A stretch of DNA of 64,000 nucleotides from positions 1-64,000 of the forward strand of contig NZ_JAUPED010000011.1 of the NCBI RefSeq assembly GCF_030552475.1, written 5' to 3'. Position 1 is the first letter of the stretch, and each line of letters starts with the position of its first letter. Positions 3,921 through 51,634 of this stretch are shown here, piece by piece. A program made the position numbers and the translations under genes. The stretch is from Mariniflexile sp. AS56. Its GTDB lineage: Bacteria > Bacteroidota > Bacteroidia > Flavobacteriales > Flavobacteriaceae. The notes below the pieces were generated by a model that was given only the letters and a program-made list of their open reading frames with translations, was not told the DNA's origin and did not search any database.

Positions 3921-5357
3921 CTATTTATCCTCGACGGGTTGATGATTTGTTAATCCTGTACGACTCATTTCTCCCCAAGATTTCTTGCCTAATAAAAAAT
4001 CGATATTCCCTTTTATACCAGCAAACATAACGAATGGATGGTAAATTAAGGGTTCTAAAAGCGCTGTTCCGATAAGTATCAATATATGCTTTGATTTTTT
4101 GTATTGTTGAAACGAAATTTCTTCAAAGTAAAGCGCTGTAAACGAAAATAGAATAGCAAAACTATAAACTACTCCAAAAAATATTAGAAAAACCAACCAG
4201 TTAATTTGACCAAAAAACACAAGCACGATGAAAAATAGAATACCAAGAAATTCTATAATAGGTGCAAGCCATTCAAAAAAGAGCCAGTAAGGGGCACTTA
4301 ATAGTCCTAATACTTTGTATTTAGGGTTAAAAATCATTTTTTTATGTAGCAAAAGTGTTTCAATAGTACCACGTGTCCAGCGGTTTCGTTGTCTGTATAA
4401 TATTTTCCATTGTTGAGGTACTTCGGTCCAGCATAAAGGGTCTGGAACAAAGGCTACGGTATAGTCCACTTTCTTTTCCTGCATCATACGTCTCATACGT
4501 ACCAACAGCTCCATGTCTTCCCCCACGGTATTTGGGTTGTAACCCCCAGCTTCTATAACGGTTTCTTTATCGAACATACCGAAAGCTCCAGATATAAGTA
4601 GTAAACCATCAACTTTAGACCATGCCATTCTGCCCATTAAAAAGGCGCGAAAATATTCAATAATTTGAGCACGTGCTAAAAAGGTGTTTGGTAATCGTAC
4701 TTCTATAATACGGCCATCTTCAATAATACACGAATTGGCTATTCTTATTATTCCGCCAGAAGCGATAACCTTTTTATCATTATCTAAAAATGGTTTTATA
4801 AGTTTTAATAAAGCATCTCTTTCCAGAACACAATCCACATCAATACAGCATATTTTAGGGTTATTACTAATGTTGATGCCGGCGTTTAAAGCGTCTGCTT
4901 TTCCACCATTTTCCTTGTCTACAATTTTTAAATTTTTATAGGCTTTTTGTTTGGAGATATACACACCTCTTATTTTCTCGGTGTGAATGGCGTTATGGTA
5001 TAATGAATCATCTAGTACCATATCAAAAGTATCCAAAAGCTTCTGTAAAGTACCATCTTTACTTCCGTCGTTTATAATGATGATTTCAAAGGAAGGATAA
5101 TCTAAAGTTAATAAAGACCGAACATTTTCAACAGCATTAGCTTCTTCATTATAAGCAGGAGCGAGGATGGAAATGGACGGTAAGTTTGAGGATTTAAGAA
5201 GGGCAATCTCATCTTGAAAATTGTTTTTCTTTTTGTAATCTCTTAGTTCAATTAAAGAAAAAATGGCAGAGAAAATATATCCTGAACAAATAATGAGACC
5301 ATATGCCAAAAAGACCCAACTGGCAATTTCTATGATCTGATGAAAATTAATATTCAA
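3921..5357 (-). CDS. Processive family 2 glycosyltransferase (PgaC/IcaA/BcsA-like)
   Basis: 478 residues. An N-terminal membrane helix (about 12-36) is followed by a cytoplasmic GT-A domain. Motifs seen are APAYNEE at 66-72, INDGSKDG near 96-103, the DVD metal site at 173-175, the catalytic-base D281 in GEDMELL, and Q323-R-N-R-W327, the QxxRW signature of processive synthases. C-terminal helices (about 345-440) complete the topology of PNAG, hyaluronan or cellulose synthases. It likely polymerises and extrudes a glycan at the inner membrane. The substrate cannot be read from the sequence, and no PilZ domain is seen. The frame starts with TTG and no ATG lies nearby, so the exact start is uncertain. 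Confidence 0.85.
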   Translation of the reverse strand: MNINFHQIIEIASWVFLAYGLIICSGYIFSAIFSLIELRDYKKKNNFQDEIALLKSSNLPSISILAPAYNEEANAVENVRSLLTLDYPSFEIIIINDGSKDGTLQKLLDTFDMVLDDSLYHNAIHTEKIRGVYISKQKAYKNLKIVDKENGGKADALNAGINISNNPKICCIDVDCVLERDALLKLIKPFLDNDKKVIASGGIIRIANSCIIEDGRIIEVRLPNTFLARAQIIEYFRAFLMGRMAWSKVDGLLLISGAFGMFDKETVIEAGGYNPNTVGEDMELLVRMRRMMQEKKVDYTVAFVPDPLCWTEVPQQWKILYRQRNRWTRGTIETLLLHKKMIFNPKYKVLGLLSAPYWLFFEWLAPIIEFLGILFFIVLVFFGQINWLVFLIFFGVVYSFAILFSFTALYFEEISFQQYKKSKHILILIGTALLEPLIYHPFVMFAGIKGNIDFLLGKKSWGEMSRTGLTNHQPVEDK

Positions 5358-11784: not shown

Positions 11785-14700
11785 ATGAGTACAAATTCAA
11801 TATTTCAATCTGTTTTAGATCGGTCTACCGATGTATGCTGTATCTTAAATGCGAAGCATCAAATTATTTGGGTCAATAAAATGGCTTCAAAACAGTTGGG
11901 GTTACCCAAAACACCTCCAAACCCTATTTTGTTTAGTGATATTTTACCGTCCAATTACAATCAAATTTTTAAGGAAACGTTACAAGAAATTGCTTTAAAG
12001 TTATCAAATACGGGTGGTTTTAAGTGCGTTCACCAAGTGGGAAATTCGTTATCGCTGGAATTGAAATGGAATTTTTCATACGACTCCAACTCCCAATGTT
12101 GGTATGCAACAGGTGTAGATGTTTCAAATTCAAAATTAAAAATAAAAGGGGCAGCATCTAAATTTAAAAATGCTTACAGATCGCTTTTTACAAAGAATAA
12201 TACGCCAAAATGGATTTATGATGAAGGGACATCCACCATCCTAGATGTTAATAAAGGCGCATTAAAGTGTTATGGCTACTCAAAAAAAGAATTTTTGGCA
12301 CTCTCACTAGATAATCTTTATGGTGAAAAAGGGTTAGCTACGGCAACAAAGGCCCGCGAAAACAATGCGAAAAAAGGAAAAAGTATCGCGTTGGGTGTTT
12401 TAGATCAAACAACTAAAAATGGCAAAACGATTAAAATGCAAATTTCAGAACAACGCATAAATGTTAGTGCATGTAATTGTATTTTAGTGACTTGCTTAGA
12501 TGTAACGGATAGTTTTATAGCGCAACAACTTGAAAGTCTTGAGCTTGAAATTATGAAGCAGATAGCTGCTGTTAGTTTTGATGTGAAAAAAGTGCTAAAT
12601 GATTATGTAAAAGGCTTGGAGTTTATTTTTCCTGACGTCAAGGTGTCAATTTTGGCTATTGCAGATAAGAAAATAAGCGATTTAGCTTACTATTCATTAC
12701 CTAGTGCGTATATGACTGGTTTTAATGGAGTGGAGATTGGTGCTAAGGTAGGGTCTTGTGGTACAGCTGCCTACACGAAAAATATGGTGATTGTAGAAGA
12801 CATCAGTTCAGACCCTTTATGGGAAAACTTTAAAGGTTTTGCATTGGGCTTTGGGTTAAAAGCATGTTGGTCGTACCCTGTAATGGATTCTAATAGTAAT
12901 GTTATTGCAACCATTGCAAATTATTATTTAACCACTAAAAAACCAACGCGAGTAGAACTTGAATTATTCAATAGATCGGCATCTTTTATTTCTATCATTT
13001 TAGAAAATGACAGTAATAGGAAAAAGATAGAGTCTAATCTAGAATTATATAATTATGTGAATCAGGCGACAAGTGATGCCATTTATGACTGGGATTTACA
13101 AAAAGACTTTATCCAATGGGGAAAAAGTTTCGAAAGGCTTTTTGGACATAAGATAGATAGTGAACTTAATAATGATGATGTATGGAAAAATTTAATTCAT
13201 AGTAATGATTATGAAAGTTCAAAGAAGTCATTAATAACATTTTTAAAAGATCCAGAACAAAACAATTGGCAGTTTGAATATTACTTAAAAAAATCGGATA
13301 ACACGTATGTATTTGTTAAATCTTATGGCTATGTTATTCGAGATGCCAAAGGTAGAGCTGTAAGAATGATAGGTGTTTTAAGTGATGCTACAAAATCAAA
13401 ATTAGATAGTTTAAATAAAGAAGTTTTATCAGACTTCAATATCATATTCAATGAAAGCGAAACTCTTTATCAGGCGTTACAAGGGGTAGTTAAAAATAAA
13501 TCTTTACAATCGTTTTCATCTTACAGTCATTTTGATGGTATAGAAGTTTGGTTGTCCAATAGAGATAGCACAAAACTTCTTTTAATGGCTTCAAGTAATG
13601 ACAACAAGAATCCACATTTTGAAGAAGGTAGCGCTACGGCCATGATTAATTATGGTGAAGGCTTACCGGGATTGGTATGGGAGAAAAAACAGCCTGTTTT
13701 GTGGAATACAGCCGCTATAAATAAACAAAAAAGTGGTATTGAATCTGGTATAAAAAACGCTGTTGGCTTACCAATTTATGTTAATAATGAATGTTTGGGC
13801 GTGTTGGTGTTTTTATCCAAATTTAAAAATGAAAGTTTCACCAATTTACAAAGCGTTTGGAAAGAAATTACAACACCATTAGGTGCTGATATTAAGAGAA
13901 AGCAGCTTAAAGAAGAAATGGATCGTATTTTTAGTTTAGCGCCTGTAATGATTTGTTTATTTGATTTTGAAGGTAGGGTGAAACGTATAAATCCGTCTGG
14001 ATGCAAATTATTGGAATACACAGAGGAGGAATTAGGAACATTTCCTTTTATGGATTTGGTGTACCCAGATGATACTGAAAAAACCCTAAAAGCGTTGTCT
14101 GATATTGCCACTAACGCTATAGACTCTAGTAAGCAGCAAATTGTTACAAGGTACATAACAAAATCTGGTAAAATCATTTGGTTAGATTGGAACTATACTT
14201 TTTCAAAAGAAGAACGACTCATATATGCCGTTGCTAGAGATGTTACAGAAACGGTGAATCTTCAAGATTTATTAGATAAAGCAACGTCCTTAGCTCAAAT
14301 TGGAGGTTGGGAGATCGACATGAGCTCTAAGTCTGTATACTGGTCAAAAATAACTAGAGATATTCATGAAGTTGATGATGATTATGTGCCAAATCTGGAG
14401 GATGGTATTAACTTTTATAGAGAAGATGTTAGACCAAAGATTCTTGAAAAAGTAAACGAAGCGGTTGAGAACGGTTCGCAATGGGATTTTGAATATCCTA
14501 TTATTACAGGAAAAGGTAATGAAGTATGGATTCGGTCCATCGGTCAATGTGAATTTGTAAATGGTGAATGCAAACGCTTGTATGGTAGTTTTCAAAACAT
14601 TCATAAAAGTAAAACGTCTGAGATTGAATTAAAAAGGGCTTTTAAAGAGAAAAATGAAATTCTAGAACGTATTGGAGATGCCTTTTTCGCCATGGATAAT

Positions 14701-42645: not shown

Positions 42646-43722
42646 TTAATGTTCACCATACCCAATATCATCCATCTTTCCTTTAAATACTTTGTATTGA
42701 ATTATAAAGTAGATAACTACCAGTATAAAAGCAATAACAAACCAGTATAAACCAACCGATAAACCGTAAGGTTCTCCAGCCATATTATAAATAGTTAAAT
42801 CTGGATTTGTACTGTTTGTTGATGGTAATAACTTAGGGAATATCGAGGCTACAGTAGAAGCGATTCCTCCAAATAAAAATAAAGATGAAAAGATAAAACC
42901 AGTACCATCTTTGGTGAAAGTTTTAATTTTGAATAGCCCGAATAAACCCGTAAAAGTAATTAACGGGAATATCCACAACCACGGATTTGTTATAAAATTA
43001 TGAAATGGCTTCGGCTCTATAACATGCCATACAAGTAGCGAAATAATGACCAGCACAAGTAGAGCAAAATTAAGTTTGAAAATAACTGTTTTAAGTTTTG
43101 TGTTTAAATCTGAATTGGTTTTAAAAATAATCCAGTTGGCACCATGAATGGTTAAAGCTACAACGCCAATAATTCCTAATAAAATAGTAAACCAGTCAAT
43201 AATACCTAAATGCTCTGCTGTAGGGCTAAAGGTAGGGTTCCATAAAGGTAAAAAGAAGTAATGTGCTTCATGGGCAGAAACACCGTTAGTAACCATACCC
43301 AAATTAACGCCTCTAACTATATTTCCTAAAGCAATTCCAAAAAAGAGTGCTAATAAAAAACTAGCGATTCCAAAGGCTTTGTCCCAAATGGTTTCCCAAA
43401 TTTTATTGTGTATTTGTCCGCGTAATTCTAAACCAATAGCTCTAAAAATAAGCAGCCACAAAATCATAATTAGCGGTAAATAAAACCCACTAAACGAAGA
43501 TGCGTACAATGTTGGGAATGCAAAAAATAAGATACCGCCAGCAGCAATTAGCCAAACTTCATTAGCATCCCAGAAGGGGCCAATGGCGTTTGTAATGGCT
43601 TTTTTGTCTTTTTCTGTTTTAGCAAAAAATAGGTGAACAATGCCTGCACCAAAGTCGTAACCATCTAAAATAATATAAATAGTTAACATGGTCATTAAAA
43701 CGATATACCAAAATAATTCCAT
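42646..43722 (-). CDS. cydB: Cytochrome bd oxidase subunit II
   Basis: 358 residues, about eight or nine membrane helices. The N-terminus WYIVLMTMLTIYIILDGYDFGAG and the ANEVWLIAAGG segment are hallmarks of CydB. With CydA it forms the quinol oxidase that reduces O2 with high affinity and resists sulfide and cyanide. It starts 2 bp after the cydA stop and is the last gene of that transcript. Confidence 0.95.
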   Translation of the reverse strand: MELFWYIVLMTMLTIYIILDGYDFGAGIVHLFFAKTEKDKKAITNAIGPFWDANEVWLIAAGGILFFAFPTLYASSFSGFYLPLIMILWLLIFRAIGLELRGQIHNKIWETIWDKAFGIASFLLALFFGIALGNIVRGVNLGMVTNGVSAHEAHYFFLPLWNPTFSPTAEHLGIIDWFTILLGIIGVVALTIHGANWIIFKTNSDLNTKLKTVIFKLNFALLVLVIISLLVWHVIEPKPFHNFITNPWLWIFPLITFTGLFGLFKIKTFTKDGTGFIFSSLFLFGGIASTVASIFPKLLPSTNSTNPDLTIYNMAGEPYGLSVGLYWFVIAFILVVIYFIIQYKVFKGKMDDIGYGEH

Positions 43723-43724
43723 AA

Positions 43725-45056
43725 TTAGTGTGTTATAGTTTCTGGACCTTTATTAATTATTTTTCCAGCAAGCATTAAAAATAAGAGTCCTAATAGTAAG
43801 TACAACCCAATAAATCCTAATAACGTGAATAAGGTGTTACCTGCAGACACCGTTGGAGAGGCTCCAGCCGATGTTCTTAATAGGTTATACACCAACCAAG
43901 GTTGTCTTCCTAATTCTGCCGTATACCAGCCCGTTGTGTTAGCAATGTAAGGGAATGGTAGCATAAACATAAGCGACCATAAAATCCATTTGGTTTTGTA
44001 AAGTTTTTTTCTGAATAATTGTACCACCGCAGCAAACATTAAACCAATAAAAATAGTGCCTAAACCAACCATAATATGATAAGCATAATAGAGACCAGGA
44101 ACGTTTGTAGGATGGACATCTTCATCAAACTCGTTGAGTCCTTTTATTTCAGCATCCCATTTTTGATAAGTTAAAAAACTCAAGATGTTTGGTACTGCAA
44201 TTTTGTTATCAAGTTTTTTTTCCTTCATGTCTGGTTGCCCGATTAAAACTATTTCAGAACCACCATCTTCAGTTTCAAAGATGCCTTCCATGGCTGCAAA
44301 CGTAACAGGTTGATGTTTTACCACGTTTTTAGCAACCATATCTCCTGTTGGAGCTGCCACGATAACACTCGCGAAGAACCCGAAAATGACACCGGTTTTC
44401 ACAAATAACTTACCAAATTCACTGTGCTTATTATTTAAAATATAGAAAGCGCCAATTGAAGCGACCACAAAAGAAGCTGTTACTAAAGAAGCGGCTTGGT
44501 TGTGTAAATAAGATGGCCATAACCATTCATTAGTAAATAAGGCACCAAAATTAGTTAATACAAACTTTCCGTTTTCTAAAATTTCAAAACCTACAGGGTG
44601 TTGCATCCAGGAGTGGGTTGCAATAATTAAAAAGCCACTTGCCCACGAGCCTAGAAATACTAAAAAGCCTGTAACGAAATGTAATTTATGTCCTAATAAC
44701 TTTTCACCAAAAATGAATAAACCTAAAAAGGACGATTCTAGAAAGAATGAAAACATCCCTTCCATGGCCAGAGTTTGCCCTATAATACCACCGGTAAGTT
44801 CAGAAAATTTTGCCCAATTGGTGCCAAATTGAAATTCCATAGGAATTCCCGTAACGACGCCCATGGCAAAGTTTAATGCGAAAATTTTCATCCAAAATTT
44901 TGCTGCATTGTTGTAGGTTTCTGTGTTTGTTCTTAAAAATTTCCATTTAAAATAGACAATCATTAAAGAGAGTCCCATGGTTAATTGTGGAAATAAGTAG
45001 TGAAAGGTGATAGTAAATGCAAACTGCATTCTATCATAAAAGAGCATGTCTTCCAT
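43725..45056 (-). CDS. cydA: Cytochrome bd oxidase subunit I
   Basis: 443 residues from ATG 45056; an in-frame TTG lies seven codons upstream but is less likely. Haem-ligand His lies in TFHYLFPQLTMG near the N-terminus, the GRQPW motif near the C-terminus is intact, and the Q-loop region is short (about 450-residue class). Catalyses quinol oxidation at the inner membrane. A GTAACAnnnGTTAC palindrome about 200 bp upstream matches those before the sulfide-detoxification genes, suggesting common control; bd oxidases keep respiration running when sulfide blocks haem-copper oxidases. Confidence 0.95.
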   Translation of the reverse strand: MEDMLFYDRMQFAFTITFHYLFPQLTMGLSLMIVYFKWKFLRTNTETYNNAAKFWMKIFALNFAMGVVTGIPMEFQFGTNWAKFSELTGGIIGQTLAMEGMFSFFLESSFLGLFIFGEKLLGHKLHFVTGFLVFLGSWASGFLIIATHSWMQHPVGFEILENGKFVLTNFGALFTNEWLWPSYLHNQAASLVTASFVVASIGAFYILNNKHSEFGKLFVKTGVIFGFFASVIVAAPTGDMVAKNVVKHQPVTFAAMEGIFETEDGGSEIVLIGQPDMKEKKLDNKIAVPNILSFLTYQKWDAEIKGLNEFDEDVHPTNVPGLYYAYHIMVGLGTIFIGLMFAAVVQLFRKKLYKTKWILWSLMFMLPFPYIANTTGWYTAELGRQPWLVYNLLRTSAGASPTVSAGNTLFTLLGFIGLYLLLGLLFLMLAGKIINKGPETITH

Positions 45057-45150
45057 AAAAAGAATTTTGTTGTGCAAAAATACGACACCATGTTTATTTA
45101 TGTGCTATTTTTTGAACAGAGATTTATTCTTTTTTGTGATTTTTTGAAAA

Positions 45151-45186
45151 CAAAAAAAAAGCATTCTTAATAAAAAGAATGCTTTT
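45151..45186 (-). terminator. Terminator after trxA, also in the cydA leader
   Basis: AAAAGCATTCTT (45157-45168) pairs with AAGAATGCTTTT (45175-45186), and the minus strand continues into a T-tract. It can end the TSUP-dioxygenase-trx transcript. Because the probable cydAB promoter lies upstream of it on the same strand, it may also act as an attenuator in the cydAB leader. Confidence 0.75.
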
Positions 45187-45230
45187 AGAGCTATTAATAC
45201 CCATTATTAGGGATGTCTGTTAAGACGGTA

Positions 45231-45274
45231 TAAAGGTATTATAAATGTTTAAAGTGCACAGTAACAATTGTTAC
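45231..45274 (-). promoter_or_regulatory. Crp/Fnr-type site plus promoter for cydAB
   Basis: GTAACAATTGTTAC (45261-45274) is a perfect palindrome. A minus-strand TACCTTTA at 45238-45231 matches TAnnTTT(G/A), with centres 33 bp apart, the same as at the two sulfide-gene sites. That distance places the palindrome near -41, as in class II Crp/Fnr activation (inference). The element points towards cydA. Confidence 0.65.
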
Positions 45275-45279
45275 AGAAG

Positions 45280-45576
45280 CTAAATGTGTGATTGCAATAA
45301 AGTTGTTAATTCGTTTTTCTGAACGACACCAGATTGTCTCCAAACTTGAGAGCCATTTTTAAACAGCAATAGGGTAGGGACGCCTCTTACTTGATATTTT
45401 GAGGCTATAGTTTGGTTTTTGTCGACATCAATTTTAATAATAGATACTTGGTCTCCCAAAACATCTTTGACTTCTTTTAGAATGGGGCTCATGGTTTTAC
45501 ATGGGCCACACCATTCAGCAAAAAAATCGACCAAAACAGGTTTTTCCTGATTTATTATTTCTGAAAATTGACTCAT
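45280..45576 (-). CDS. trxA: Thioredoxin
   Basis: 98 residues from ATG 45576, which overlaps the rhodanese stop by 1 bp; an upstream in-frame start at 45588 would add four residues. WCGPCK active site (residues 22-27 in this numbering), cis-Pro in RGVPTLLLF. Dithiol reductase of the cytoplasm. Its place after the rhodanese and persulfide dioxygenase suggests that it reduces protein persulfides or recycles the rhodanese rather than serving only general redox needs. Confidence 0.92.
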   Translation of the reverse strand: MSQFSEIINQEKPVLVDFFAEWCGPCKTMSPILKEVKDVLGDQVSIIKIDVDKNQTIASKYQVRGVPTLLLFKNGSQVWRQSGVVQKNELTTLLQSHI

Positions 45577-45917
45577 TACTCTTTCCAATTTAAGAAACCA
45601 CCTTTTAAATCGTAGATTTCAGTAAAACCTAATTTAATTAATTGGTTCGCAGCTTTGTTACTTCGGTTTCCGCTTCTGCAATAAACATAAACGGGTTTCT
45701 CTTTATTCAATTTACTGATGTCATTACTAAAACTTTTAGAGAAAAAGTCTATGTTTTTAGCGTTTTTAATGTGTCCTGATTTAAATTCGTTAGGAGTTCT
45801 TACATCAATAAGTTGCACATTATTACGTGTAATTTGTTCTTTGAACGTTTCGGGTTGTAGTGCTTTGATGTTGCTATTCTGTACTTGGGTTCCGAAAAGA
45901 AATGAAAATAAGGACAT
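45576..45917 (-). CDS. Single-domain rhodanese sulfurtransferase
   Basis: 113 residues from ATG 45917; another ATG at 45938 would overlap the upstream gene. Active-site loop CRSGNRS with C80, preceded by IDVRTPNEF. It transfers sulfane sulfur between donors such as glutathione or protein persulfides and acceptors. It lies between the persulfide dioxygenase fusion and thioredoxin with 1-2 bp spacing, forming a reactive-sulfur module. Confidence 0.88.
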   Translation of the reverse strand: MSLFSFLFGTQVQNSNIKALQPETFKEQITRNNVQLIDVRTPNEFKSGHIKNAKNIDFFSKSFSNDISKLNKEKPVYVYCRSGNRSNKAANQLIKLGFTEIYDLKGGFLNWKE

Positions 45918-45919
45918 AA

Positions 45920-47329
45920 TTATAATGTTGTTGGGCATATGTAATCTGTTACGGGGATTTCAGTTTGCTTAATTGCGGCAAAACCACCAGTTATATTAAT
46001 TAAGTTATGAATACCTCTGCTTTTTAAAATAGAGGCAGCAATTATAGATCTATAACCACCTGCGCAATGTAGGTAAAAGGTTTTATCATCTGGGAATTCA
46101 TTTAAATGTTCGTTTAAATAATCGAGAGAAGTGTGTTGGGCGTTTTTAACGTGCTCCGATTTAAATTCACCATCTTTTCGAACATCAAAAACTGGTGCTT
46201 CTTCTTTTTCTAAAGTTTGTTTTAATTCTGAAGCAGATATAGAGGTGACGGTATCGTAATCTAGCCCTGCATTTTTCCAAGCTTCAAAGCCTCCTTTTAA
46301 ATAGCCTATGGTTTTATCGAAGCCAACACGTGATAAACGAATGATGGTCTCTTCTTCTTTTCCTTCTGGAGTAACAAGTAATATAGGTTGTTCCACATCG
46401 GCAATTAAAGAGCCTACCCAAGGGGCAAAATTACCTTCAATACCAATGAATATAGATCTAGGAATGTGGCCGTTGGCAAATTCATCTTGATGACGTACAT
46501 CTAAAACGATGGCGCCTGTATTGTTTGCAAGGTGCTCAAAATCGGTAGGGGTTAAAGGTGTTGTACCGCGTTCAATAACATCTTCAACATCATCATAGCC
46601 TTCTTTATTCATTTTCACATTCAAAGGAAAATATTGAGGAGGTGGTAATAAACCATCAGTCACCTCTTTAATAAATTCTTCTTTAGTCATATTAGCTCGT
46701 AAAGCATAATTTGTTTCCTTCTGGTCACCAATGGTTCCTATCGTTTTTTTACTTAAATTTTTTCCGCAAGCGGAACCAGCACCATGAGCAGGGTATACAA
46801 TAACAGCATCGCCTAAAGGCATAATTTTACCTCGAAGGCTGTCAAAAAGCATTCCTGCTAAGTCTTCTTGGGTTATATGTTCTGCTTTTTGAGCTAAATC
46901 GGGTCTGCCTACGTCTCCTAAAAACAAGGTGTCTCCACTAAAAATAGCATGGTCGTTTCCGTTTTCATCTTTCAATAAATAGGTGGTGCTTTCCATGGTG
47001 TGCCCAGGTGTATGCAGTGCAGTTATGGTTATATTTCCTAGTTTGAAAACTTGAGCATCTTCAGCTATAATAGCATCAAAAGTTGGGTTTGCACTAGGGC
47101 CGTAAATTATGGGAGCACCTGTAAGTTTAGATAGGGTTACATGGCCACTCACAAAATCGGCATGAAAATGGGTTTCAAAAATGTATTTAATTTTTGAGTT
47201 ATTATTTTCAGCCTTAGTGATGTAAGGGGTAACCTCTCTTAATGGGTCTATAATAGCGACTTCGCCGTTACTTTCTATGTAATAGGCACCTTGCGCTAAA
47301 CATCCTGTATATATTTGTTCGATCTTCAT
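45920..47329 (-). CDS. CstB-like persulfide dioxygenase-rhodanese fusion
   Basis: 469 residues from ATG 47329; upstream in-frame sequence to 47386 is probably untranslated. Order: metallo-beta-lactamase/ETHE1-type domain (about 1-240: ETHFHADFVSGH, FSGDTLFLGDVGRPDL, YPAHGAGSACGKN), a rhodanese domain without active Cys (about 265-360, reading LLVTPEGKEEE), and a second rhodanese with C422 in HCAGGYRS. This is the layout of staphylococcal CstB, which oxidises persulfide to thiosulfate. It probably removes sulfide-derived persulfides in the cytoplasm. Confidence 0.88.
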   Translation of the reverse strand: MKIEQIYTGCLAQGAYYIESNGEVAIIDPLREVTPYITKAENNNSKIKYIFETHFHADFVSGHVTLSKLTGAPIIYGPSANPTFDAIIAEDAQVFKLGNITITALHTPGHTMESTTYLLKDENGNDHAIFSGDTLFLGDVGRPDLAQKAEHITQEDLAGMLFDSLRGKIMPLGDAVIVYPAHGAGSACGKNLSKKTIGTIGDQKETNYALRANMTKEEFIKEVTDGLLPPPQYFPLNVKMNKEGYDDVEDVIERGTTPLTPTDFEHLANNTGAIVLDVRHQDEFANGHIPRSIFIGIEGNFAPWVGSLIADVEQPILLVTPEGKEEETIIRLSRVGFDKTIGYLKGGFEAWKNAGLDYDTVTSISASELKQTLEKEEAPVFDVRKDGEFKSEHVKNAQHTSLDYLNEHLNEFPDDKTFYLHCAGGYRSIIAASILKSRGIHNLINITGGFAAIKQTEIPVTDYICPTTL

Positions 47330-47349
47330 AATTCTATAAGTATTATGTG

Positions 47350-47393
47350 TAAAATTAAGTATTTTTTTAAGTTTGAATAGTAACAAAAGTTAC
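47350..47393 (-). promoter_or_regulatory. Crp/Fnr-type site plus promoter for the CstB-like gene
   Basis: GTAACAAAAGTTAC (47380-47393) with arms GTAAC/GTTAC. A minus-strand TAATTTTA at 47357-47350 lies with its centre 33 bp away, the same geometry as at 48213-48256. It sits just downstream of the TSUP stop, so the dioxygenase has an internal promoter. Confidence 0.65.
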
Positions 47394-47397
47394 AGTT

Positions 47398-48195
47398 CTA
47401 ATTTTGAGTGAATTCTTTAATAAGAATGTAAATAGCCATGACCATTACAAAAAAACCGAATCCTTTTTTTAGTTTTTTGTTTGAAATGTATTTCGATAAA
47501 TAATCACCTAATAAAACCCCCAGCATGGTGAGAGCGGAAAAAGTTAGTAGAAATACCCAGTCTGTATTTAAGGCATGTAAATCGCCTAAAAACCCAATAA
47601 TTGAATTTATAGATATAATTACTAAGGACGTTCCCACGGCATTCTTCATAGATAAACCTGCCCAAAGTACTAAGGCTGGTACATATAGAAAGCCTCCTCC
47701 AGCACCAATTAAACCGGTTATAACACCTATAATTAAGCCTTGTACAAATGTTTTGTAATAGGGTTGCTTTATAAACGTACCACTTGTATCCTTTTTCCCT
47801 TTAATCATGGAAGTGGCTGCAGCAAGCATAACAAGAGCGAAAAAGACCATGATGGCTATTTCCTTGGTAATTATAAATCCATTTAAGGTGAAAAGTTCTT
47901 CAGGGATATTCGGAACTAAATAACGCCTTGTAGTATAAACAGCTATAAATGAAGGAAAGGAAAACGCTAAACCTGTTTTAAAGTCGACTAATTTTTTTTG
48001 ATGCTTTTTATAAACTCCAAAAATAGAAGACGTTCCTACCACAAAAAGAGAATAGGCTGTGGCTGTAACTGGGTTGTATGCCAAAAGGTACACCAATAGA
48101 GGAACGGTTAATATAGAGCCGCCTCCACCAATTAGGCCGAGAACCATTCCAATAATGAAAGCACCAAAAAAACCTAAAAAATCTATTAAAGCCAT
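47398..48195 (-). CDS. TSUP-family (TauE/SafE) permease, probable sulfite/sulfur-oxyanion exporter
   Basis: 265 residues, about seven or eight membrane helices, with the paired family repeats MVLGLIGGGGSILTVP (N-terminal half) and GVITGLIGAGGGFLYVP (C-terminal half). TSUP proteins move sulfite, thiosulfate or sulfonates. Beside a persulfide dioxygenase it most likely exports the sulfite or thiosulfate produced. Direction is inferred from context. It is followed by the CstB-like gene with 68 bp between stop and start. Confidence 0.88.
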   Translation of the reverse strand: MALIDFLGFFGAFIIGMVLGLIGGGGSILTVPLLVYLLAYNPVTATAYSLFVVGTSSIFGVYKKHQKKLVDFKTGLAFSFPSFIAVYTTRRYLVPNIPEELFTLNGFIITKEIAIMVFFALVMLAAATSMIKGKKDTSGTFIKQPYYKTFVQGLIIGVITGLIGAGGGFLYVPALVLWAGLSMKNAVGTSLVIISINSIIGFLGDLHALNTDWVFLLTFSALTMLGVLLGDYLSKYISNKKLKKGFGFFVMVMAIYILIKEFTQN

Positions 48196-48212
48196 AGTTC
48201 TGTTTTATATTA

Positions 48213-48256
48213 CAAAACTAGACTAGTTATAGGACTCAGTCAGTAACATTAGTTAC
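48213..48256 (-). promoter_or_regulatory. Crp/Fnr-type site plus promoter for the TSUP gene
   Basis: GTAACATTAGTTAC (48243-48256) with arms GTAAC/GTTAC. A perfect minus-strand TAGTTTTG (TAnnTTTG) lies at 48220-48213, with centres 33 bp apart. It lies in the 67-bp gap between the regulator gene and the exporter. Confidence 0.7.
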
Positions 48257-48262
48257 ACAGCA

Positions 48263-48895
48263 CTACAAGTCTAAAATTTTAATACTATTTCGGTGAAGTT
48301 CTATTTTACCTTCAATTTCTAAAGTTTTCAATAATCTGGAAATAACAACTCTAGAAGTATGCATATCGAAGGCAATTTGCTGGTGCGTAACTTGTATAAC
48401 TTCGTTATGGTTTACCATGGCTTTGTCCTTTAAATACTTAAAAAGGCGTTCGTCCATTTTTAAGAAGGCAATGGCGTCAACGGCTTCTAAAAGTTCGGTC
48501 ATTCTATCATGGTAACTCTGAAGGATGAAGTTTTGCCAACTTTTGTATTTCCCCATCCATTCGCTCATTTTTTCAACAGGAACCATTATTAGCTTTGTTG
48601 GGGTTTCAGCGACCGCTCTTATTTCGCTCTTTTTCTGACCCATACAGCACGATAAAGTCATGGCGCAGGTGTCGCCACGTTCAATAAAATAAAGCAAAAG
48701 TTCATCGCCTTTATCATCTTCGCGCAGAATTTTTACAGCACCACTAACAAGTAAAGGCATCGATTTAATATAATCGCCAATATCTATAAGTTGGAAACCT
48801 TCGGGTAGTTCTTTGAAAGTTCCAACGCTATTTATTTCCATTAACAGGCTATCTTCAAACAGGTAACCATAGTTTTCTTTTAACTCTTTAATCAT
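48263..48895 (-). CDS. Crp/Fnr-family regulator with a CxxxxxCC sensor motif
   Basis: 210 residues. Cyclic-nucleotide-binding-like domain (about 15-130), dimer helix, then a helix-turn-helix (about 160-200: QVTHQQIAFDMHTSRVVISRLL). In the sensor domain C77, C83 and C84 lie in DTCAMTLSCCMG, at the turn that binds ligands in other family members. Adjacent sulfur genes suggest that these cysteines sense sulfide or persulfides (inference). It probably binds the three GTAACAnnnGTTAC palindromes nearby and activates the exporter, dioxygenase and cydAB genes. Confidence 0.85.
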   Translation of the reverse strand: MIKELKENYGYLFEDSLLMEINSVGTFKELPEGFQLIDIGDYIKSMPLLVSGAVKILREDDKGDELLLYFIERGDTCAMTLSCCMGQKKSEIRAVAETPTKLIMVPVEKMSEWMGKYKSWQNFILQSYHDRMTELLEAVDAIAFLKMDERLFKYLKDKAMVNHNEVIQVTHQQIAFDMHTSRVVISRLLKTLEIEGKIELHRNSIKILDL

Positions 48896-49444: not shown

Positions 49445-51634
49445 ATGACTAAATATTTTTATTCCATATTATTTTTTCTGAGTATTTTCTCAAACTTATT
49501 TTCGCAAGAGGTAAATATAACTGCGGAATTTTCCTTAGATGGTATTTTCTATAAAGTTTACGATAAAACAACCCATACTTACACTCGAAAGATAACCGAG
49601 TTTAAAATGGATGAAGAATGTACTGTTATTGATTATTTAGGAAAGGACGTTTTTAAAATAAAGTATAACGGTTGGTTAGGTTACGTAGATTCTGAATATT
49701 TGATTTTCAATGATGAAATGTCTGATTTATTTTATGATTTTCAAGAAAAGGAAAGAATAAAGTTGATAGAACAAAATAAAGCAAGACAGGAAAGAATACA
49801 AGAAATTGTAAATAATGGGAGTGCTGAAATTGAGGAAAAAGCAAAGGTAGATTCTATCGCAAAAGGAGTAGAAGAAAAGCGTATTAAAGAAGTTGAAGTT
49901 GCGGCAGTTAAGGAATTAGAAGCAGAACGTGTTGAAAAGGAAAAACAAGCATCTATAGCCAAAGCTAAGTTAGAAGAAGAAAAACGTATAAAAGAAGCTC
50001 AAGAAGTTGCTGCTAGAAAATTAGAAGCAGAACGTGTTGAGAAGGAAAAACAAGCAGCCATAGCCAAAGCTAAGTTAGAAGAAGAAAAACGTTTACAAGA
50101 AGCTAAAGAAGTTGCTGCTAGAAAATTAGAAGCAGAACGTACTGAGAAGGAAAAACAAGCAGCCATTGCCAAAGCTAAGTTAGAGGAAGAAAAGCGTACA
50201 CAAAAAGCTCAAGAAGCTGCTGCTAGAAAATTAGAAGCTGAACGTGTTGAGAAAGAAAGACAAACAGCCATTGCCAAAGCAAAGCTAGAGGACGAAAAAC
50301 GTATTCAAGAAGCTCAAGAAGTTGCGGCTAGAAAATTGGAAGCAGAACGTGTTGAAAAAGAAAAACAAGCAGTTATTGCTAAAGCTAAGCTAGAGGACGA
50401 AAAACGTATACAAGAAGCTCAAGAAGCTGCTGCTAGAAAATTGGAAGCAGAGCGTGTTGAAAAGGAAAAACAAGCTGCCATTGCCAAAGCTAAGATAGAA
50501 GAAGAAAAACGTATACAAGGAGCACAAGAGGTTGCTGCTAGAAAATTAGAAGCAGAACGTGTTGAAAAAGAAAAACAAGCTGTTATTGCCAAAGCTAAGT
50601 TAGAAGAAGAAAAACGTTTACAAGAAGCTCAAGAAGCTGCTGCTAGAAAATTAGAAGCAGAACGTGTTGAGAAAGAAAAACAAGCAGCCATTGCCAAAGC
50701 TAAGATAGAGGACGAAAAACGTATACAAGAAGCTAAAGAGATTGCTGCTAGAAAATTAGAAGCAGAACGTGTTGAAAAGGAAAAACAAGCATCTATAGCC
50801 AAAGCTAAGTTAGAAGAAGAAAAACGTATACAAGAAGCTAAAGAGATTGCTGCTATAAAATTAGAAGCAGAACGTGTTGAAAAGGAAAAACAAGCTGTTA
50901 TTGTCAAAGCTAAAATAGAAGAAGAAAAACGTATACAAGAAGCTAAAGACGTTGCTGCTAGAAAATTAGAAACTGAGCGTGTTGAGAAGGTGAAAAAGGC
51001 AGCTATTGCTAAATCTAAAGTAGAGAAAGAAAACGAATTGCTTGAAGCTGAAGAGGAGACCGTAAGGGATTATGAAGCAGAACGTATCGAGATAATAAAA
51101 CAAGCAGCTATTGCTCAGGCTAAAGCCGAAAAGGAAAAGGTTCAAGTTAAAGAAGTTGTTAGTAAGCCTGTTATCGAAGAAAACAAGGATACTGAGAAAG
51201 TCGATAGAGCGGAGTTAAGAAATACGTGCCATTACGCAATGAATGAGTATGACGATATTGATAGAATAAAGATAGTTAGAACAGATCCGTATGATATTAA
51301 TGATAAATTAACTATCGAATTGTTTAAAAGAGGGCGAAGTATTAACGTCTTTTTTAACCTGAGGGCAGATTTGGGTTGTGCGAGTTATTTACCTAATAAC
51401 AGGTCTTCCGTTAAAGTTAAACTTGAAAACAACCAAACCATTACACTATACCATTCATGGGATATGAATTGTGGTGATTATAGTTTTAAAGGGAATTTAT
51501 CGAAGTCGCAAATGAGTTTATTAGAAAAATCGCCCATCAAATCCATACTACTTCGAGGTACAAAAGGGTCTCGTGAAGTTACAAATGTTGAATACAAAGA
51601 ATTTTTTATAGATAAGTTAGGTTGTATCGAGTAG
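49445..51634 (+). CDS. Secreted SH3-like/coiled-coil repeat protein of unknown function
   Basis: 729 residues. Signal peptide (1-20, NLFSQ), an SH3-like domain (about 24-90, ending NGWLGYVDSEYLIF), a charged helical region (about 95-565), and a C-terminal globular domain (about 585-729) with four cysteines and no recognised family. The helical part is built of about twelve 35-residue repeats of the type EEKRIQEAQEVAARKLEAER, five heptads each, so it should form a long rigid coiled coil or single helix in the periplasm or envelope. A TolA-like spacer or structural filament are both possible. It follows the tRNA terminator by about 230 bp and stands alone. Confidence 0.75.
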   Translation: MTKYFYSILFFLSIFSNLFSQEVNITAEFSLDGIFYKVYDKTTHTYTRKITEFKMDEECTVIDYLGKDVFKIKYNGWLGYVDSEYLIFNDEMSDLFYDFQEKERIKLIEQNKARQERIQEIVNNGSAEIEEKAKVDSIAKGVEEKRIKEVEVAAVKELEAERVEKEKQASIAKAKLEEEKRIKEAQEVAARKLEAERVEKEKQAAIAKAKLEEEKRLQEAKEVAARKLEAERTEKEKQAAIAKAKLEEEKRTQKAQEAAARKLEAERVEKERQTAIAKAKLEDEKRIQEAQEVAARKLEAERVEKEKQAVIAKAKLEDEKRIQEAQEAAARKLEAERVEKEKQAAIAKAKIEEEKRIQGAQEVAARKLEAERVEKEKQAVIAKAKLEEEKRLQEAQEAAARKLEAERVEKEKQAAIAKAKIEDEKRIQEAKEIAARKLEAERVEKEKQASIAKAKLEEEKRIQEAKEIAAIKLEAERVEKEKQAVIVKAKIEEEKRIQEAKDVAARKLETERVEKVKKAAIAKSKVEKENELLEAEEETVRDYEAERIEIIKQAAIAQAKAEKEKVQVKEVVSKPVIEENKDTEKVDRAELRNTCHYAMNEYDDIDRIKIVRTDPYDINDKLTIELFKRGRSINVFFNLRADLGCASYLPNNRSSVKVKLENNQTITLYHSWDMNCGDYSFKGNLSKSQMSLLEKSPIKSILLRGTKGSREVTNVEYKEFFIDKLGCIE
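49865..51124 (+). repeat. Twelve in-frame 105-bp tandem repeats
   Basis: Units start at 49865, 49970, 50075, 50180, 50285, 50390, 50495, 50600, 50705, 50810, 50915 and 51020. The first and last are diverged, the central ones are very similar at DNA level. Each encodes 35 residues (five heptads). The exact period implies copy-number change by recombination or slippage; length may vary among strains. Confidence 0.9.

Follow-up and report, generated by a model that had tools for sequence, protein, structure and literature searches.

FnrS of E. coli is a small RNA with the promoter of a Crp/Fnr-type activator, and the class II position of such activators is centred at −41.5. In the cst operon of S. 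aureus (CstR-TSUP-CstB), a TSUP exporter and a persulfide dioxygenase-rhodanese stand under one sulfur regulator. Here we analyse a locus of Mariniflexile sp. AS56 (Flavobacteriaceae) that resembles both systems, and we refer to the whole stretch of DNA studied, 64,000 nucleotides (nt) at positions 1 to 64,000 of contig NZ_JAUPED010000011.1, as the window. It encodes a TSUP exporter and a CstB-like dioxygenase-rhodanese, and the promoter of a Crp/Fnr-type activator appears to drive a small RNA of ~75 nt, which probably acts as a sponge for a family of other small RNAs. The locus differs from cst in that the predicted regulator is of the Crp/Fnr type with class II sites, whereas CstR is a CsoR-type repressor, and its RNA differs from FnrS in having no Rfam match, a place in a sulfur-centred regulon and other small RNAs as predicted targets.

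Two further systems are close at the RNA level. The excerpt available of PMC8383071 describes SroC and the chb spacer as small RNA (sRNA) sponges that pair with small-RNA seeds, some sponges being derived from 3′ untranslated regions (UTRs). The predicted Mariniflexile RNA is likewise under its own control and complementary to small-RNA seeds, and a 3′ UTR origin is matched in the related loci L053, L060 and L084 (loci and genomes carry our L and G numbers). In that excerpt each sponge has one or two small-RNA partners, whereas here a 9-nt core fits a many-member family of +1 seeds, and sponge activity is a prediction. FopS of Bacteroides thetaiotaomicron comprises, in the portion of PMC11697453 available, paralogous small RNAs countered by the protein RbpB, and thus offers a multi-member Bacteroidota family with a common 5′ seed. 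FopS members are alike beyond the seed, whereas the RNAs that begin with GCUAUUAAU, the partners predicted here, share little past their first nine or ten bases, which sets them apart from FopS as that portion describes it. A literature search that left subscription papers mostly outside its reach did not find the pair formed by the core and the GCUAUUAAU RNAs, and a text search with either 9-mer gave no paper on flavobacterial RNAs among the matches listed.

Class II geometry at three palindromes

The palindrome GTAACANNNGTTAC lies in the window at 45261, 47380 and 48243, as a sequence-only reading of this DNA had reported, and each copy has a −7 box, TAnnTTT(G/A), on the minus strand:

48243..48256, minus strand: palindrome A, centre −41.5, TSUP promoter
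48213..48220, minus strand: −7 box TAGTTTTG, TSUP promoter
47380..47393, minus strand: palindrome B, centre −41.5, dioxygenase promoter
47350..47357, minus strand: −7 box TAATTTTA, dioxygenase promoter
45261..45274, minus strand: palindrome C, centre −41.5, predicted small-RNA promoter
45231..45238, minus strand: −7 box TACCTTTA, predicted small-RNA promoter

The motif GTAACNNNNGTTAC occurs three times in the window against 0.10 expected, and none of 100 shuffles reached three. All three boxes are centred exactly 33 bp from their own palindrome. Since the Bacteroidetes sigma-A −7 box spans −12 to −5 according to the available part of PMC9723704, this distance places each palindrome at −41.5, and the spacing and class II fit proposed in the earlier reading are therefore exact at all three sites. 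In the genome (4.65 Mb) the palindrome is present nine times, these three included; the other six copies lie inside open reading frames (ORFs) and have TAnnTTT(G/A) at 33 bp on neither side. When the complete class II pattern was sought genome-wide and two mismatches at most were tolerated, 12 matches came back (3 exact, 1 with one mismatch and 8 with two), the exact ones being the three window sites, and the reversed control gave 12 matches in all. The one-mismatch site (L293; G000:C1:9390-9433), outside the window, has its −7 box 16 nt ahead of the start codon of a Sulf_transp (YeeE-type) gene.

Scanning with the regulator then yielded 68 loci for comparison, mostly from Flavobacteriaceae, with Mariniflexile gromovii (93%) as the nearest. 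Of the 142 perfect palindromes in these loci, 126 are accompanied by TAnnTTT(G/A) at a distance of exactly 33 bp, 124 of them on the regulator's strand and 2 in the inverted cluster of L043. Every other box offset from 20 to 49 bp accounts for 7 palindromes at most.

A small RNA predicted at the third site

Downstream of palindrome C we predict the following elements:

45152..45226, minus strand: predicted small RNA of ~75 nt, with +1 derived from a −7 box spanning −12 to −5 (available part of PMC9723704)
45190..45198, minus strand: anti-seed core AUUAAUAGC, conserved, unpaired probability 0.94
45157..45186, minus strand: intrinsic terminator stem-loop, 12 pairs followed by a T run, covarying in 20 aligned relatives

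The order on the minus strand is palindrome (45274-45261), −7 box (45238-45231), predicted +1 (45226), terminator stem (45186-45157), a box belonging to the cytochrome bd gene cydA, and the cydA start (45056). The terminator, which the earlier reading had overlooked, separates the site at 45261 from cydA and stands ~95 bp before its start codon. M. gromovii (L040) has a degenerate palindrome (8/10) at unchanged spacing, with the RNA and terminator ahead of cydA. M. fucanivorans (L041) retains all three elements, the site, the RNA and the terminator, and the ~7 kb that follow them hold no cydA. Because the terminator precedes cydA and the RNA is kept without it in L041, the promoter at 45261 is most likely that of the small RNA, and 45226-45152 very probably constitutes a small-RNA gene.

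With its own predicted promoter, an intrinsic terminator and, as judged by eye, no conserved ORF, the gene has the features of a trans-acting small RNA. Rfam gave no match at the window RNA (E up to 1) or in 18 relatives (E 0.1), and in the absence of a covariance-model match we rejected FnrS or another Rfam family as its identity. We also rejected a small protein at 45226-45152: inspected by eye, the window, L040 and L041 do have a start codon whose frame includes the core, and in L099, L110 and L111 this frame runs into a stop immediately behind the core. A TPMT-like methyltransferase gene, absent from the window, lies between the thioredoxin gene and the small RNA in three relatives (L185:10098-10685, L171:10455-11057 and L175:9376-9957); the Pfam TPMT assignment is for L185.

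Recurrence of the core in Flavobacteriaceae

Relaxed class II sites number 175 in the 68 loci plus the window. At 12 of them a terminator comes before any long ORF, and 8 of these share the core ATTAATAG just ahead of the terminator; the terminator-linked sites of L054, L069, L070 and L080 do not have it. The Aestuariibaculum loci L042, L044 and L045 were included by position, despite a −7 box that does not match. In a family set of 397 genomes, the palindrome followed by ATTAATAGC was found in 27 genomes, against 2 for the reversed pattern, and by eye a terminator follows the core in 19 of the 27 and in none of the other 8. The core has a mean unpaired probability of 0.78 in the 27 RNAs, and 9 of the 10 terminator pairs are changed on both sides among 20 aligned sequences, most of which were selected by the core. 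Several distant copies have neighbouring genes that were identified by eye as a LacI-type regulator or a TonB-type receptor. In the distant copies an imperfect −7 box, or one displaced by 1 bp, is common, and they may therefore answer to another Crp/Fnr protein. Covariance-model matches below ~48 bits (279 of 397 genomes, E up to 0.05) were not taken as members because any AT-rich terminator can attain such scores.

In six relatives the core, sometimes altered, and a terminator are instead found in 3′ UTRs of sulfur-cluster genes. In L053 and L060 they follow the stop codon of an SQR-like gene with a class II site ahead, and L052 has the same placement with a changed core. The SQR-like assignment is based on L053 (Pyr_redox_2, with the NCBIfam type III SQR model matched below its cut-off), whose N-terminus is the same in the L060 and L052 proteins. 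In Formosa-type loci, core and terminator come after thioredoxin, the gene behind the dioxygenase (L084, and with one base changed L081 and L083); in L083 the criteria applied to relatives detect no class II site at the dioxygenase gene, and the TSUP gene has one. The core element is thus found repeatedly in the sulfur cluster, in varying places.

Predicted complementary transcript starts

The sequence GCUAUUAAU is the complement of the core AUUAAUAGC. We searched the 397 genomes with a partner pattern, a −7 box followed by four bases and GCTATTAAT, which puts the G exactly at +1. It gave 588 matches, as predicted transcript starts, in 155 genomes. A dinucleotide-preserving shuffle of the 9-mer gave 28 matches in 28 genomes; this control supersedes the reversed 9-mer (~33 matches in ~31 genomes, counted by eye). 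When gaps of 0 to 14 bases were allowed in 13 genomes, the gap of 4 that corresponds to an exact +1 accounted for 68 of 131 matches, gap 5 for 13 and gaps 2 and 3 for 8 each, with a mean of 4.5 over the 14 other gaps.

All 19 genomes with a palindrome-linked RNA contain the +1 motif (hypergeometric P 8.5e-9, uncorrected), and it is likewise present in 29 of the 30 genomes that gave the best covariance-model matches. Among those 30 matches, 11 have no palindrome of at least 9/10, and 10 of these 11 genomes have the motif. With the strict pattern, a palindrome-linked RNA is missing from most of the 155 genomes that carry the motif, so only a subset would have its core RNA under Crp/Fnr control.

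This genome has eight such starts. Three belong to predicted small RNAs arranged in tandem on contig C4, four to further short transcripts and one to an mRNA leader. In each case the core is paired to +1 in the best predicted duplex with the RNA of the window, with energies from −11.2 to −25.4 kcal/mol, and the duplexes of L277, L280 and L289 reach z −3.8 to −4.6. At the level of sequence, then, the seed complementarity of an sRNA sponge is present for 8 of 8 +1 transcripts, the partners being predicted small RNAs.

A search for GCTATTAAT ahead of ATG codons, for which there was no usable control, gave only the lead to the tandem arrays; of two places followed that are conserved between G000 and G323, one is a tandem array and the other lies inside a coding sequence. 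The array in L270 (G000:C4:24000-34000, ~4700-5120, minus strand) consists of three small transcription units that each start with GCTATTAAT, and G168:C1:1618158-1619079 holds five or more such tandem units. Each unit in both is preceded by TACGTAGAAGTGCGTA-like repeats. A LuxR-type response-regulator gene (Pfam Response_reg, GerE) immediately precedes the tandem array.

Gene content of the predicted regulon

Upstream of the small RNA on the same strand lie the regulator and its other predicted targets:

48263..48895, minus strand: Crp/Fnr-family regulator, 210 amino acids, Cys77/Cys83/Cys84; Pfam cNMP_binding and HTH_Crp_2 above cut-off
47398..48195, minus strand: TSUP (TauE/SafE) exporter; Pfam TauE, 150 bits
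45920..47329, minus strand: CstB-like persulfide dioxygenase with two rhodanese domains; Pfam Lactamase_B and two Rhodanese stretches
45576..45938, minus strand: single-domain rhodanese; Pfam Rhodanese
45280..45576, minus strand: thioredoxin; Pfam Thioredoxin (match listed from 45573, without the first codon)

The dioxygenase, whose activity is predicted, combines the MBL and rhodanese domains of CstB-like proteins, and its best solved relatives, 3tp9 and 3r2u, match over nearly the whole length. In relatives we counted a class II site where 8 or more of the 10 arm bases matched and a box lay 33 bp away. By this measure a site stands ahead of 42 of 52 dioxygenase genes with a placeable start (10 without) and 38 of 52 TSUP genes (14 without). 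Both genes have a class II site in the window, in keeping with their proposal as targets in the sequence-only reading, and a Crp/Fnr-type sulfur regulon is well supported at the sequence level. In many relatives (L050, L053, L057 and others, at about position 13060), an extra class II site lies between the dioxygenase and rhodanese genes, directly after a terminator-like GCGCTTTTTT; in the window these genes overlap, without an extra site between them. Elsewhere in the window, the product of the gene at 49445-51634 is largely a coiled-coil-like repeat of ~36 residues (EKEKQA...).

The cyclic-nucleotide-binding fold and Crp-type helix-turn-helix (PF00027 and PF13545, above cut-off) identify the gene next door as a Crp/Fnr-family member, as had been suggested. 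Cys77, Cys83 and Cys84 are kept in 67, 66 and 67 of 67 regulator sequences, and the named residues of the recognition helix S-R-V-V-x-S-R are invariant. Alignment shows a similar cysteine pattern in 3dv8, so the pattern is not special to sulfide loci. The recognition helix also resembles, in alignment, the R-V...R helix of cyanobacterial NtcA. The NtcA site is GTA-N8-TAC, which GTAACNNNNGTTAC includes. The two differ in that 3dv8 is the best solved relative of the regulator, and in gene context, sulfur here versus nitrogen.

Proposed mechanism and alternatives

From the sites, their spacing, the terminator, the conservation, the complementarity and the co-occurrence, all of which can be read in the DNA, we infer the following. 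The regulator (48263-48895) would bind at −41.5 and activate the TSUP gene, the dioxygenase-rhodanese-thioredoxin genes, the distant YeeE-type transporter gene and synthesis of the small RNA (45226-45152). This RNA would end at its own terminator and would not be a cydAB leader. Its open core AUUAAUAGC would pair in the cell with the 5′ ends of GCUAUUAAU RNAs, here about seven short transcripts and one mRNA leader. Once the regulator is activated, presumably by reactive sulfur, the RNA would sequester the seed family and thereby change the control that its members exert. We consider such a sulfide-regulon sponge for a small-RNA family the probable function.

Several observations weigh against it. 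Both 9-mers are AT-rich and contain the self-complementary ATTAAT, and the co-occurrence P value takes no account of phylogeny. Only 17 of the 27 RNAs have a fully open core in their minimum-free-energy structure, and +1 to +9 of L280 are mostly paired inside their own RNA (0.31). Pairing of L286, L287 and L288 is little above shuffles (24, 15 and 84 of 600 equally strong). In the Aestuariibaculum loci L042, L044 and L045 the core ends in G and there is no matching −7 box, and one core base is changed in three of the 3′ UTR cases (L052, L081 and L083). Finally, 12 of 20 palindrome-linked RNA regions lie away from the sulfide cluster and 8 beside its genes.

The alternative that survives best is that the RNA acts directly, as repressor or activator, on mRNAs beginning with GCUAUUAAU, the shared 5′ ends of small RNAs being secondary. 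There are indeed mRNA leaders among the +1 matches, namely L283 in this genome, L282 and L284 in the genus and L240, L248, L250 and L262 elsewhere. We nevertheless think it unlikely, given that in this genome 7 of the 8 +1 transcripts reach a T run within 127 nt, ahead of any long ORF, and that tandem arrays of +1 units recur.

The sequence-only reading had instead made cydAB a target of the regulator, so that bd oxidase would be co-induced with sulfide detoxification from a promoter element at 45261. The features that bear on this are:

45075..45082, minus strand: cydA's own −7 box TATTTTTG
43725..45056, minus strand: cydA, Pfam Cyt_bd_oxida_I, probably no target in this window
42646..43722, minus strand: cydB, Pfam Cyt_bd_oxida_II, probably no target in this window

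That cydA is the next gene on the strand after the site speaks for co-induction, as does the palindrome near cydA, with a box at 33 bp, in other genera (7 of 16 loci and 8 of 20 genomes). For this window we regard it as quite improbable, and the claim is not supported, because the terminator lies between site and gene, cydA has its own −7 box and the RNA is conserved without cydA in L041. No palindrome of at least 8/10 is found at −41.5 of that box in the window.

Relatives were surveyed for the palindrome before cydA, as had been suggested. In a first survey of 16 loci, seven have a direct class II site close to the cydA start, six the small-RNA arrangement and three neither; in a second, of 20 genomes, the counts are eight, two and ten. 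With direct sites present elsewhere, bd co-regulation may hold in other genera. Direct palindromes were seen in L049, L054, L055, L060, L062, L072 and L090 and in G110, G049, G063 and G113 (L217-L220). Many of these cydA sites have GTAAT as their first arm, so a Crp/Fnr paralogue may act there. The cydA of G110:C23:104089-105417 (L217) is 93% identical to that of the window, closer than that of some nearer relatives, a possible transfer.

More improbable still is a conditional leader, in which a GCUAUUAAU RNA pairing with the core, itself only 3 to 5 nt from the terminator stem that follows, alters termination and allows read-through into cydAB: in Mariniflexile and Aestuariibaculum the core does abut the terminator, and cydA is the gene that comes after, but a cydA-type gene stands behind only 5 of 20 RNA regions (L174, L182, L183, L185 and, 5.6 kb away, L171).

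Implications

Beyond the sponge proposed for Mariniflexile, the data are compatible with a wider seed/anti-seed network in Flavobacteriaceae, a proposal for which we hold the chances to be even. Many otherwise dissimilar small RNAs and some mRNAs would start at +1 with GCUAUUAAU, and dedicated AUUAAUAGC RNAs would titrate the whole set together; in the sulfide lineage, the anti-seed RNA would have joined the reactive-sulfur regulon by several routes, in some cases with a gene of its own and in others within a 3′ UTR. The locus would also illustrate that a promoter-like site ahead of a gene can serve a hidden RNA gene in between. If the proposal is right, these bacteria would possess a Crp/Fnr-type regulator devoted to sulfur whose site is defined, sulfide stress would be linked to post-transcriptional control, and Flavobacteriaceae would have a global RNA circuit that lends itself readily to testing.

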